DNA of 64,000 nucleotides, taken from the NCBI RefSeq assembly GCF_001434115.1, contig NZ_AZDW01000013.1:1-64000 (forward strand). Reading direction: 5' to 3'. Within the stretch, counting starts at the first letter, position 1. The number at the start of each line of letters is the position of its first letter. Source of the stretch: Levilactobacillus zymae DSM 19395. Lineage in GTDB: Bacteria; Bacillota; Bacilli; Lactobacillales; Lactobacillaceae. The notes beneath the pieces are model-generated. The model had not been told where the DNA came from. It ran no database searches and worked only from the letters and a program-made list of their open reading frames with translations. Position numbers and translations under genes: made by a program. Positions 9,595-15,211 of this stretch are shown piece after piece.

Positions 9595-10287
9595 ATGACA
9601 TTCGGCGTAATTTGTGCCATGGAAGAAGAAATCAAAGAACTTAAACTGGCCCTGCAAGACGAACAAACCACCAATATTCACGGGGTGGAATTCTACCAGG
9701 GAACCATTCACGACCAAAGCGTCGTTCTGGTTCGTTCCGGAATTGGGAAAGTTGAAGCCGGTTTGACCACGGCTTTACTGATCACCCAATTCAACGTGGA
9801 CGTGGTGATCAACTCTGGGTCGGCAGGGGCTTTAGCGGCCGGCTTAAAGATCGGTGACGTGGTCATTTCGACCGAAACGGCCTATCACGATGCCGATGCG
9901 CGGGCCTTTGGCTACGAATACGGCCAACTGCCCCAACAACCAGCCCGGTTCGCGGCTTCCAAAGAATGGGGCGCCAAGATTGCGGCGGCGGCCAGCCAAA
10001 CCGGCCTGACTACCAAGCAGGGCTTGATCGTGTCCGGCGACCAATTCTTAAACGGTCCGGCGGCCACTAAGCCCATTTTGGAACACTTCCCCGACGCACT
10101 TTCCGGTGAAATGGAAGGGGCAGCGGTGGGACAAGTGGCCCATCAATTTGACGTTCCTTACGTGGTCGTGCGGGCGATGTCCGACACGGCGGATAACAAT
10201 TCCGGGGTCGATTTTGACGACTTCATCATCGACGCTGGTCGGCAGTCGGCGCAGATGTTATTAGCGCTCTTTGCCGCACAACAGTAA
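9595..10287 (+). CDS. mtnN: 5'-methylthioadenosine/S-adenosylhomocysteine nucleosidase
   Basis: Cleaves adenine from MTA and SAH, which removes SAM by-products and feeds AI-2 precursor formation with LuxS. The family motifs are present: CAMEEE at the N terminus, SGIGKVEA, NSGSAGAL, SGDQF, the EMEGAA substrate motif and RAMSDTAD with the catalytic Asp. The length of 230 residues is typical. Next to it lies the cysteine desulfurase gene, an arrangement common in lactobacilli. Confidence 0.96.
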   Translation: MTFGVICAMEEEIKELKLALQDEQTTNIHGVEFYQGTIHDQSVVLVRSGIGKVEAGLTTALLITQFNVDVVINSGSAGALAAGLKIGDVVISTETAYHDADARAFGYEYGQLPQQPARFAASKEWGAKIAAAASQTGLTTKQGLIVSGDQFLNGPAATKPILEHFPDALSGEMEGAAVGQVAHQFDVPYVVVRAMSDTADNNSGVDFDDFIIDAGRQSAQMLLALFAAQQ

Positions 10288-11972: not shown

Positions 11973-14063
11973 ATGCAAGGTAGCCCCAAAATGATTATAC
12001 GAATCATACATAACGAAGATAAAATCTATATTCCTCTTTATCAGCGACGCTATAGTTGGGGAACGGACCAAGTTCAACGGTTGGTTGAAGATATTCTTAT
12101 GGCGGAACAACGAGGACTTGATAAGTATTTTGTCGGTAGCTTAATTTTGGATTTAACGACAACGGATGCGGTTGCCGTTATTGATGGACAACAACGATTG
12201 ACGACAATATCGTTATTTTTAATAGCATTACGAGATTTAATGGCGGTAACTGATGAGCGACAAGCAAGGATAATCAATGATAAGTATCTCGTTGATCCTT
12301 ACGATGAAGAAACTGGCTATCATAATCGTTTAAAACCAGTTGACGGGGATGAACAGCAGTATATTGATGTTCTTTTGCATGGTGATCAGGCAAAGCCATC
12401 GTTATTTAAGCTAAACTATCAGTATTTTAAGAATGCTGTTCAAAGTGGTGTGCTCTCAGTTGAAGACTGGTTAAATTTATTACAAACGAAATTACAAGCG
12501 ATGGTGATTACAGTTCAACCAGGAGATGATGCCCAACTTATCTTTGAAAGTCTTAACTCGACTGGGTTAGGGTTAACTGAGTCAGATAAAATTAGAAATT
12601 ATCTATTAATGGGCTTAGAACGTGATGCTCAAACGCAAGCTTTTGAAGTTTGGAAATCAATTGAAAGATTAGTTCATCGTGAAAATATCTCGAATTTTTA
12701 TCGACATTACTTAACATCGTTGGCAACTTCATCGAAGCCAGTGAAGAAGAATGATATCTATGATAATTATCGGCAGGAGATTGGACTCCATCCTAATTTT
12801 GACCGTTATACGGAATTGTTAGAAGAAGAAAAGGTTGCCAAAATTTATGCTAAAATTCAGTTTCCGCAAGAGTATCAGTTTACAGATCAGACTACGCAAC
12901 GATTATTGATTAGATTATCTCATTTACATATGGATGTGATGATGCCGTATTTCCTACAAATTTTTAATTTGTACGAAAAGCAAAAACTATCGCTTAATGG
13001 ATTAAATGAAGTTCTGAAAACAGTTTTAGGCTATCTTGCAAGACGACTATTTGTCGGTATTCCAAGTACAGGATTAAATAACTTTTTTACGACTTTGAAT
13101 CGTCAAGTACAGCGTCTAACGAAAAATAACGATATTAATTATCCACGAGCATTAGAAGTGGTATTAACACACAAGGTTAAAGAAAATAAGATTTTTCCGT
13201 CTAATGCAATGCTAATGGATGCACTGACATCTAAGGATTACTATCATATTAGAACAGAATCTTTCTGGTTTATTATGGATGAACTGAATAATTGGCGTGG
13301 AGAAACGCAAATGTTATTTGAGCGAGCTGAGAATGGCGATTTTTCAATTGAGCATATTTTGCCGCAGACGTTAAGCCGAAGCTGGCAACAAAACTTAGGA
13401 GAAAATTGGCATGATGTTCAGGTTACCTGGACTAACCGACTCGCTAATTTAACATTAACAGGTTTTAATTCACAGATGAGTAACCATAGTTTTCGTGATA
13501 AGCGAGATGCTCCTAATGGTTACAGAGATTCTGGGATAAAATTAAATCAGACCTTGGTTGGAATGGATGAGTGGAATGAAAATTCGTTAAAACAGCGACA
13601 ATTTGATTTATATCAACGAGCACTTAAGGTTTGGCCATTGCCGAGTGTTGCCGATGTTGAGGTAGATGCGGGTGAGTGGGTAAGTTTAGCGGATATTGAT
13701 CCAAAGGGAGAGAAACCAATAACGTTTAGTTTTAAGGAGCAAAGGGATGTTTCGATTAAGAGTTGGAAAGAACTTTATGATCGAATTGTTAATATATTGT
13801 GGTTGGATAATCCACCAATATTCTATAAATTAGCCAATGATGATGCGGAATGGTTAGTAAAATATAATCATGAGGTAAGTGATTCAATTCAGTATCGTCA
13901 GTTAGATAATGCAGATCAACATCAGGGGTTAAGTGTTTATTCCGGCGGTGCATCGGCTCAGGATCGGAAAAGGCATATTCAACGTTTTCTAACAGCAAGC
14001 AATGATTCATTAGAGAGTGTCCAAGTGAAGTTGAATAAGGGATTAGCTTTGCATGAAAAATAG
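11973..14063 (+). CDS. DUF262-DUF1524 (GmrSD-like) restriction-type protein
   Basis: A 696-residue protein with the layout of fused GmrSD type IV restriction enzymes. The N-terminal DUF262 domain has YQRRYSW at residues 23-29 and DGQQR at 71-75 (the nucleotide-hydrolysis motif of GmrS). The DUF1524 part has an HNH-like EHILP at 460-464 followed by conserved Asn and a SNHSFRDKR segment. Residues from about 560 form a C-terminal domain I cannot name. Two 60-base samples are about 37-38% GC against about 62% in a neighbouring core gene, a strong sign of horizontal transfer. Likely role: defence against modified or phage DNA. The reading frame and key motifs are intact; the ATG follows AAGGAAGG. 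Confidence 0.88.
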   Translation: MQGSPKMIIRIIHNEDKIYIPLYQRRYSWGTDQVQRLVEDILMAEQRGLDKYFVGSLILDLTTTDAVAVIDGQQRLTTISLFLIALRDLMAVTDERQARIINDKYLVDPYDEETGYHNRLKPVDGDEQQYIDVLLHGDQAKPSLFKLNYQYFKNAVQSGVLSVEDWLNLLQTKLQAMVITVQPGDDAQLIFESLNSTGLGLTESDKIRNYLLMGLERDAQTQAFEVWKSIERLVHRENISNFYRHYLTSLATSSKPVKKNDIYDNYRQEIGLHPNFDRYTELLEEEKVAKIYAKIQFPQEYQFTDQTTQRLLIRLSHLHMDVMMPYFLQIFNLYEKQKLSLNGLNEVLKTVLGYLARRLFVGIPSTGLNNFFTTLNRQVQRLTKNNDINYPRALEVVLTHKVKENKIFPSNAMLMDALTSKDYYHIRTESFWFIMDELNNWRGETQMLFERAENGDFSIEHILPQTLSRSWQQNLGENWHDVQVTWTNRLANLTLTGFNSQMSNHSFRDKRDAPNGYRDSGIKLNQTLVGMDEWNENSLKQRQFDLYQRALKVWPLPSVADVEVDAGEWVSLADIDPKGEKPITFSFKEQRDVSIKSWKELYDRIVNILWLDNPPIFYKLANDDAEWLVKYNHEVSDSIQYRQLDNADQHQGLSVYSGGASAQDRKRHIQRFLTASNDSLESVQVKLNKGLALHEK

Positions 14064-14140
14064 TATCGTTTGTGTTTTTTAGTTGGTGTGATGCGGGCAA
14101 CGTTGCCTTTAAAGTACTGTAGGCTTAAATGCACAGTGTA

Positions 14141-14298
14141 CAGCCTGGAGGCGAGCAGGGGCTCAGCCAGCGAAATTGTGGTTAGTCAGTGTACCTTGCT
14201 GACTTACCACAAGGCCGAGTTTTGAAACTCGCGGGTCTAGCGAGGTTCAAAATCGTGCCCGCAGGCGTTCCAGCCCCTGAGCGCCGGAAGGCGACCAG
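14141..14298. other. Highly structured noncoding element, unclassified
   Basis: The 290-nt gap between the DUF262 gene and the metallophosphoesterase holds a compact nested fold. CAGGGGCT (14156-14163) pairs with AGCCCCTG (14272-14279) and encloses two long hairpins: 14176-14212 (13 of 14 pairs, 9-nt loop) and 14216-14255 (about 16 pairs with one bulge). Small hairpins flank it: GCC-TGGA-GGC (14143-14152) and CGCC-GGAA-GGCG (14282-14293). It is GC-rich like the host, unlike the adjacent gene. I see no open frame. It could be a noncoding RNA or a repeated extragenic element; I do not recognise it. Confidence 0.7.
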
Positions 14299-14353
14299 CT
14301 TTATCCCAATCAGCATTATACGTAGTAGTTTTTCAAGAAGGTGAAGAGAGTTT

Positions 14354-15211
14354 ATGGCAAAAATTGCAGTGATTTCGGACGTGCACGGTAACGTCACGGC
14401 GCTTCGGGCGGTCCTCGCCGATGCCCGGGCGGCCGGATGTACGGCGTATTGGTTCCTCGGGGACCTGTTCTTCCCGGGACCGGGCGCCCACGACCTGTTA
14501 ACGATCCTCGACGCCCTACCCATCACGACCTACGTGCGGGGCAACTGGGAAGATATTCTGTTCGCAACGGTCGACGGGGCCATCGACAGAGATGACCCGA
14601 TTGACGTTTACGCCACCATTCTGGGGCACTACGTCTGGACGCACCTAACGCCAAGCGACCACCACCGGTTGCGGGCCTTGCCGATGGTCCAACGGCGCAC
14701 CGTCAACGGCTTGACCTACCAGCTGACCCACAACCAACTGACCAAGAATTTCGGTCACACGCTGATGCCGGCACAGGACCAAGCGGCCTTTGACCAACTG
14801 GCGGCCGGTCCCGCCGACGTCTTCTTATACGGCCACACCCATCATCAGCTGGTGCGGCAGAGTAGCGCCGGCCAACTGATCATTAATCCGGGGACCGTGG
14901 GGATGCCCTTCACTCAGTGGGCAGCCTTTGCCAAGGACTTACGGGCCCAGTACGCGATTCTGACCACCCACGACTTTGACGCGCCCACCGTGGATTTACG
15001 CCGGGTGGCTTACGACGCCGAGGCCGAGCTGGCCTTAGCCCAAGCGGCGCAATTGCCGTACCTCGACTTGTATACGGCCCAGCTCCACACCGGGGTGGTG
15101 CGGACCCACGACCGGCCGGGGTTAGCGGCGGCGACCCAACGACACGGGTACCAAGCCGAGTTTGCCCGGTTATGCGCCCAATTTCCGGCTAGCGGGCACG
15201 CTCAGGACTAG
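14354..15211 (+). CDS. Calcineurin-like metallophosphoesterase
   Basis: A 285-residue two-metal phosphoesterase. It shows the family motifs in order: ISDVHGN (residues about 7-13), a GD in LGDLFFPG, GNWE (usually GNHD or GNWD), a THNQ motif and the GHTHHQ metal site, plus NPGTVGMP, typical of YfcE/ApaH-like cytosolic phosphodiesterases. The substrate cannot be told from sequence. It has no clear promoter of its own and is preceded by the structured element at 14141-14298. Base composition is host-like, in contrast to the DUF262 gene. Confidence 0.88.
   Translation: MAKIAVISDVHGNVTALRAVLADARAAGCTAYWFLGDLFFPGPGAHDLLTILDALPITTYVRGNWEDILFATVDGAIDRDDPIDVYATILGHYVWTHLTPSDHHRLRALPMVQRRTVNGLTYQLTHNQLTKNFGHTLMPAQDQAAFDQLAAGPADVFLYGHTHHQLVRQSSAGQLIINPGTVGMPFTQWAAFAKDLRAQYAILTTHDFDAPTVDLRRVAYDAEAELALAQAAQLPYLDLYTAQLHTGVVRTHDRPGLAAATQRHGYQAEFARLCAQFPASGHAQD

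Follow-up and report, generated by a model that had tools for sequence, protein, structure and literature searches.

A dispersed, self-pairing repeat family of lactobacilli that looks like mobile or once-mobile DNA

The interval 14141-14298 of the stretch analysed here (64,000 nucleotides of Levilactobacillus zymae DSM 19395, hereafter the window) is one copy of a large dispersed family of self-pairing repeats present in many lactobacilli. The family looks like mobile or once-mobile DNA rather than a single-locus RNA gene, and we think it somewhat probable that the interval represents one half of a non-autonomous mobile palindromic DNA element, moved or flipped in folded form by a trans-acting enzyme. 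Searches of the open-access literature brought up no description of this repeat family.

The minimum free energy (MFE) of the plus strand of 14130-14310 is -87.4 kcal/mol, against -60.2 +/- 4.1 kcal/mol for shuffled sequences (z -6.63), and that of the minus strand is -79.8 kcal/mol (z -4.47); on neither strand was any of the 200 shuffles as stable, which bears out the view of the first-pass annotation that such dense nesting of stems is unlikely by chance. The overall shape is that of a rod, P1, leading through an internal loop and a short helix, P2, into a three-way junction with the hairpins P3 and P4. Homology among the copies extends over approximately 14134-14305, slightly beyond 14141-14298, and the features are as follows:

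11973-14063, plus strand: AT-rich GmrSD-type restriction-like gene, outside the repeat (PF03235, E 3.6e-32; PF07510, E 9.6e-20)
14134-14305, plus strand (the orientation of the model): solo A-type unit of the repeat family (17 other BLAST matches in its own genome, 75-88% identity)
14143-14163, plus strand: 5' arm of P1, with paired blocks 14143-14146, 14150-14153 and 14156-14163 separated by unpaired GGA and AG (MFE; alignment consensus much alike)
14166-14172, plus strand: 5' side of P2, whose partner is 14260-14266 and which closes the three-way junction (MFE, alignment consensus)
14176-14212, plus strand: hairpin P3, 37 nt (MFE, alignment consensus, 40-copy alignment)
14213-14259, plus strand: hairpin P4, 47 nt (MFE, alignment consensus, 40-copy alignment)
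14272-14292, plus strand: 3' arm of P1 and 3' end of the unit, with paired blocks 14272-14279, 14282-14285 and 14289-14292 that are likewise interrupted by unpaired AG and GGA (MFE, alignment consensus)

The enclosing stem described at first sight is confirmed as CAGGGGCT (14156-14163) base-paired with AGCCCCTG (14272-14279). The first of the two inner hairpins stands at its 37 nt, while the second, put at 40 nt, measures 47 nt to its base. A pair of short flanking hairpins, each with a 4-nt loop (14143-14152 and 14283-14292), had also been proposed; they are absent from both the MFE structure and the alignment consensus, where the two segments are instead base-paired to one another as an extension of the enclosing stem, such that either these hairpins or the outer part of P1 can form. 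The stems are real, as the z-score indicates, and in place of the original five-stem picture they make up a rod that forks into a Y, with P2 as an extra helix. The sequence of P1 varies between copies, yet its pairing is retained in the copies folded, and P2 takes the compensatory form GCCGGTG/CACTGGC in copy L011. A tRNA-like or terminator reading is ruled out by the three-way-junction rod and by the lack of a T-run straight after the outer stem, so that the earlier dismissal of a terminator holds good. ARAGORN found no tRNA or tmRNA gene in the whole window, and among 4227 Rfam families none matched above its gathering threshold, two weak matches lying far below it.

In its own genome (2.70 Mb, 59 contigs) BLAST returned 18 matches including the window copy, of which 16 entered the whole-unit alignment (A1), L012 with its run of N and the partial L017 being excluded. 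A covariance model, made from 40 chosen within-genus cores (A2) and extending only to the innermost P1 pairs, matches the window copy at 14159-14275 with 132.9 bits, this copy being part of the training set. With 150 candidates scored in each genome, the model counts 71 copies in the own genome, 60 in G001, 115 in G018, 135 in G019, 39 each in G034 and G272, 52 in G281 and 101 in G375. Across a sample of Lactobacillaceae at least 121 of 397 genomes and at least 15 of 40 genera have a model match at E<=1e-5, these being lower bounds from nine scored candidates per genome and strict filters; in an order-wide sample 12 of 295 genomes have a match, all 12 of them in Lactobacillaceae. An exact-pattern scan of contigs gave at least seven stretches, in L. 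acidifarinae and L. namurensis (records near the own genome were possibly omitted). Unpaired motifs of the repeat are kept across genera. Among plasmids, two Levilactobacillus brevis records carry an A unit, and one Lacticaseibacillus record has a weak match covering 15% of the query; two queries of phage records gave no match. On the two Levilactobacillus brevis plasmids, which are mobilizable, the repeat adjoins an S8 peptidase gene (L152 4013-4128, L153 4013-4128), and on one of them a gene annotated as peptidylprolyl isomerase spans it. As to local arrangement, G112 (L221, L222) has units in short tandem series, at intervals of 168-181 nt, with a single inverted unit after them, and as to chromosomal position, the region of G019:C1 opposite the origin (approximately 0.93-1.72 Mb, with dnaA at position 1) holds none of the 135 matches.

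The units are characteristically paired. In G019 the 135 matches fall into 84 groups, comprising 48 '-+', one '--', one '-++' and 34 solo units, so that 48 of the 50 multi-unit groups are divergent pairs (composites) with their 5' ends facing, as in palindromic inverted doublets. The cores of '-+' pairs are separated by 77 to 109 nt in one set of pairs and by 146 to 348 nt in another. The copy in the window stands alone: once filters are switched off, the matches that come next are its own minus strand at 19.3 bits and one at 10021-10074 with 16.3 bits (E 0.07), and approximately 80 bp separate it from the upstream gene. It is probably an immobile half, left over from a pair.

The first-pass annotation had proposed that many intergenic copies would indicate a repeat family and compensatory changes a noncoding RNA. 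Both outcomes were positive, and the balance of G-U and A-C pairs together with the symmetry between the strands were needed to decide. Two-sided changes occur in 25 of 54 pairs in A1 (16 own copies) and in 27 of 42 pairs in A2 (40 copies). Within helices G-U cells amount to 3.0% in A1 and 3.1% (51 cells) in A2, against 15.0% (475) in RNase P RNA sequences from 30 members of the genus; A-C cells amount to 1.0% and 1.3% (22 cells), against 0.03% (one cell), although the depth of this control is unequal, the mean identity being 0.943 for RNase P RNA and 0.83-0.86 for the repeat. The pattern expected of an RNA, in which wobble is tolerated and A-C avoided on the transcribed strand, is thus not that of the repeat, and this count rules out taking the covariation as proof of RNA. 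Similarly, of the pairs predicted on the plus strand 52 of 54 (A1) and 39 of 42 (A2) are also predicted on the minus strand, the corresponding values being 41 of 106 for RNase P RNA and 12 of 13 for 15 short REPs from 200 kb of E. coli. Pairs common to both strands hold 21 G-U and 19 A-C cells in A2, and 14 and 7 in A1. The 12 shared pairs of the REP control are Watson-Crick in 180 of 180 cells, with one further plus-strand column containing 14 G-U and with no A-C, and this control backs the DNA reading on strand symmetry only, not on the ratio of G-U to A-C. The constraint reads as DNA-level because the covariation is poor in G-U and near strand-symmetric, unlike that of the RNase P RNA of the genus.

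The comparison of orthologues, covering the 19 of 22 pairs that are more than 85% identical, gave 21 one-sided and 9 two-sided changes in 1071 base pairs versus 64 changes in 820 unpaired sites. When the pairs are taken from both strands, the one-sided changes number 21 G-T versus 12 A-C. Transversions (GC to CG, for example) make up seven of the nine two-sided changes; wobble intermediates are skipped, and three two-sided changes cluster in one hairpin between close orthologues. It looks as if selection or correction acts on DNA hairpins or cruciforms, the folded DNA presumably being the form that is maintained. There is nevertheless a weak lean to the plus strand, given by the 21:12 ratio of one-sided changes, the 14:7 ratio in A1 and the better fold of the plus strand in both alignments.

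One alternative then is that the dispersed copies form a family of structured RNAs, with a role in mRNA stabilisation or in regulation, under selection either as plus-strand RNA or as transcripts of both strands. Such a family would be consistent with the two-sided changes in both alignments, the conserved unpaired bases and the better plus-strand fold (-58.0, against -45.9 for the minus strand), and an RNA made from both strands would give a similar pattern of pairs; we nonetheless consider it quite unlikely, in view of the scarcity of G-U, the 22 A-C cells against one in RNase P RNA, the comparable G-U and A-C counts of the pairs common to both strands and the lack of an Rfam match. The setting among genes, with ORFs defined by length only and no gene caller, bears on the same question. 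Composites have neighbouring genes in the orientations ++ (10), -- (9), +- (8) and -+ (7), none being preferred; no fixed orientation to genes was thus found for composites, and these even counts speak against the RNA. Solo units turned to plus show -- 14, +- 7, ++ 7 and -+ 6, the 14 of 34 that are antisense to both neighbours being a tendency in favour of the RNA. Genes turn their stop towards the 3' side of a unit in 56 cases and their start in 42, compared with 318 stops and 360 starts over all gaps longer than 100 bp in these loci. No promoter-like motif common to the 24 spacers was seen by eye, which also counts against a transcribed family.

Direct comparison of G018 and G019, which are approximately 95% identical and collinear over the parts compared, revealed that elements lie flipped in place. 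At multi-unit loci with collinear flanks 6 of 14 are flipped and 8 have the same orientation, a count from which one locus (flanks not collinear) and two groups (close to where the fetched stretches end) are omitted. Four of the six flips, in elements of approximately 370 bp, are clear (flipped scores of 344-358 versus unflipped scores of 88-97) and two are partial (127.5 vs 38 and 192.5 vs 57); among solos one of five is flipped, its counterpart being a pair. The flipped site at c59:68971 is bounded by an 18-bp perfect inverted repeat. Between G000 and G001 a composite (L129/L119) again lies in opposite orientation, the copies being more diverged, while L128/L118 was rejected as a flip of one copy by the differing hairpin sequences of its two units. 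Inverted repeats could give rise to flips through ordinary recombination or through template switching, with no need of a dedicated enzyme.

Very similar composites are found at different places in G019, each time with different flanks. Composites 2524997 and 803768 are 93.5% identical over 541 bp, with similarity stopping 25 and 25 nt past the outer cores; 354667 and 380742 are 95.6% identical over 384 bp (61 and 30 nt past the cores); and 2216221 and 809211 are 90.6% identical over 615 bp (25 and 34 nt). The pair 347942/354667, which belongs to a larger duplication, was not counted as evidence of mobility. These near-identical sequences at unlinked loci suggest that the family is, or has been, mobile, and together with the many copies per genome they uphold the mobile extragenic repeat among the options first listed. 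The ends of composites carry an inverted repeat around CGCCTTACCGG (CGCCTTACCGG...CCGGTAAGGCG at unit 3' ends, as examined in G019), the unit end that corresponds to the 3' arm of P1 bearing CCGGTAAGGCG in that genome. Of the 94 CCGGTAAGGCG motifs in the fetched G019 loci, 82 are found no more than 70 nt from a unit, in every case at its 3' end, and 12 sit more than 70 nt from a model match. Two such end motifs, pointing outward and 2 kb apart in G019, flank an AT-rich gene, MFS-transporter-like by eye, with no intact units (L154 14458-16466, G019:C1 approximately 334458-336466); its middle is replaced by a shorter stretch in G018, and no transposase was seen between these motifs in the part of the genome covered.

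Among the absences inspected there was no clean empty site; they proved to be deletion remnants or wholly different intergenic sequence. Two candidates were rejected on this ground, namely the absence of a solo B unit in G018, where the 3' end of the unit is still present, and that at L136/L124, a deletion keeping part of the unit. Over the roughly 200 kb compared, no clear new insertion distinguishes G018 from G019, and a few loci differ by one unit, by gain or loss (e.g. c59:56284 and c18:88731).

The search for the mover was centred on the Y1/RAYT transposases (PF01797). Among nine genomes, four have matches to this family (G001, G012, G034 and G375) and five have none (G000, G018, G019, G272 and G281). 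G012, with five PF01797 matches, gave no repeat match among its nine scored candidates. The repeat has no model match in the seven Y1 loci scanned, the remaining two of nine being overlapping pieces of one, and no conserved GTAG tetranucleotide was seen by eye in the 16 own copies and the G019 composite ends. A RAYT as the mover in today's genomes is ruled out by the absence of Y1 from several repeat-rich genomes and of repeats from the seven Y1 loci scanned, and by this test the repeats are not a REPIN family, because several repeat-rich genomes are without any Y1/RAYT transposase. With PF01797 as the family searched, no enzyme moving or flipping the repeat was found.

The repeats could also simply be passive palindromes, relics of an extinct transposon which host replication and repair alone flip, correct and delete, with no dedicated enzyme today. 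This would sit well with the lack of a transposase found with the repeats, the 18-bp inverted repeat around the flip at c59:68971, the deletions that leave one unit end, the two-sided changes without wobble intermediates (including a cluster of three within a single hairpin) and the absence of a clear new insertion between G018 and G019. We judge it fairly unlikely, since occurrence in at least 121 of 397 genomes, with up to 135 copies and very similar copies at unlinked loci, needs past or present amplification, and since passive decay leaves the conservation of unpaired motifs across genera unexplained.

At the window locus itself, the copy lies between the GmrSD-type gene and a metallophosphoesterase gene; the former, the neighbouring restriction-type gene noted from the start, is matched also by the PADLOC Orf5/HEC-06 models and has a GC content of 0.33-0.41. 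G001 is collinear around this locus and has both the GmrSD gene and, at the corresponding position, the repeat. G034, whose neighbouring proteins are 95-100% identical where matched, has neither the gene nor the repeat at this site and has an unrelated short intergenic sequence instead. The metallophosphoesterase gene seems to be likewise variable there; before mnmA this gene (14354-15211 in the window) occurs, besides the window, only at L226 among 30 loci with a reach of 1.5 kb. The neighbouring DUF1831 gene has a model match somewhere in the fetched stretch at 4 of 28 other loci. That the repeat marks the border of an AT-rich insertion, having arrived together with the GmrSD-type gene, had been a further suggestion, which holds locally in so far as G034 is without both, and the AT-rich MFS-transporter-like gene between two unit ends in G019 provides a second instance of the kind. 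With 71 copies in the genome, the repeat is not specific to that insertion, and no partner unit is present on the other side of the GmrSD gene, which makes this origin highly improbable.

We return to the favoured reading, that of a non-autonomous palindromic element moved or flipped in trans. In its complete form the element would consist of two cloverleaf-like palindromes, B and A, arranged divergently such that their 5' ends face each other and their 3' ends point outward; it spans approximately 360-630 bp in the species measured and is bounded by short inverted repeats. A putative trans-acting recombinase or transposase would recognise the folded ends, as hairpins or cruciforms, and pairs would be duplicated into new sites and inverted in situ, the bacterium presumably tolerating them between genes. 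Lone units, the window copy among them, would then result from decay or deletion of the partner, as with REPIN singlets, and would probably be immobile. More tentatively, and with some doubt on our part, the repeats may represent a family-wide class of invertible mobile DNA, in which a predicted recombinase reads folded single strands or cruciforms of paired three-way-junction palindromes, multiplies them within genomes and flips them so frequently that orientation is near-randomised between species 5% apart.

Known systems offer partial parallels. For REPs, 93% of 430 doublets are reported as inverted (PMC3116915), and the abundance of inverted doublets, with singlets as remnants, is shared with the repeats described here (PMC3116915; 48 of 50 groups in G019), as are the intergenic location, the imperfect palindromes and the near-identical pairs on both strands (REP 12/13). 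The repeats differ from REPIN/BIME elements in their units of approximately 165 nt with a three-way junction, REPs being given as 20-40 bp (PMC3733652), in having no Y1/RAYT genes in G000, G018, G019, G272 and G281, in showing no conserved GTAG tag, and in being flipped in place. The bcr1 repeats of Bacillus cereus, which are described as folded, lineage-restricted and 147-167 bp long, with 11 to 130 copies per genome (PMC2267715, PMC6542083), resemble ours, as compared by description, in size, copy number, folding, mobile-element features and lineage restriction (PMC2267715, PMC6542083); their mobility is tied in that account to a TTTAT motif (PMC6542083), whereas ours have inverted repeats at their ends and divergent pairs. 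MITEs are likewise non-autonomous and intergenic, with short terminal inverted repeats (82/82 motifs within 70 nt of a unit at unit 3' ends, as counted in G019); they differ in that the interior of our repeat consists of two conserved junction-bearing palindromes. No parent insertion sequence came to light in the part of G019 covered, and among the absences inspected no clean empty site offered a target duplication to judge. CGTC-tagged REPs share the palindromic form and, as portrayed in PMC3733652, the lack of a known dedicated transposase, but are short and have a CGTC end tag (PMC3733652), no such tag being noted in the repeat. By analogy, these large paired palindromic repeats appear to work like REPINs, the moving unit being the inverted doublet and singlets its remnants, which is a likeness of operation and not an assignment to that class.

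These observations have consequences beyond the locus itself. Strong covariation alone is no proof of RNA, and the balance of G-U and A-C together with strand symmetry helps to separate DNA palindromes from it, a test that screens for RNA discovery could adopt. A large repeat family, without an Rfam match and with up to 135 counted copies per genome, is carried by bacteria of food and gut, and its flips pose a testable question, namely which enzyme, or which process of replication, is responsible for inverting segments of a few hundred base pairs flanked by short inverted repeats.
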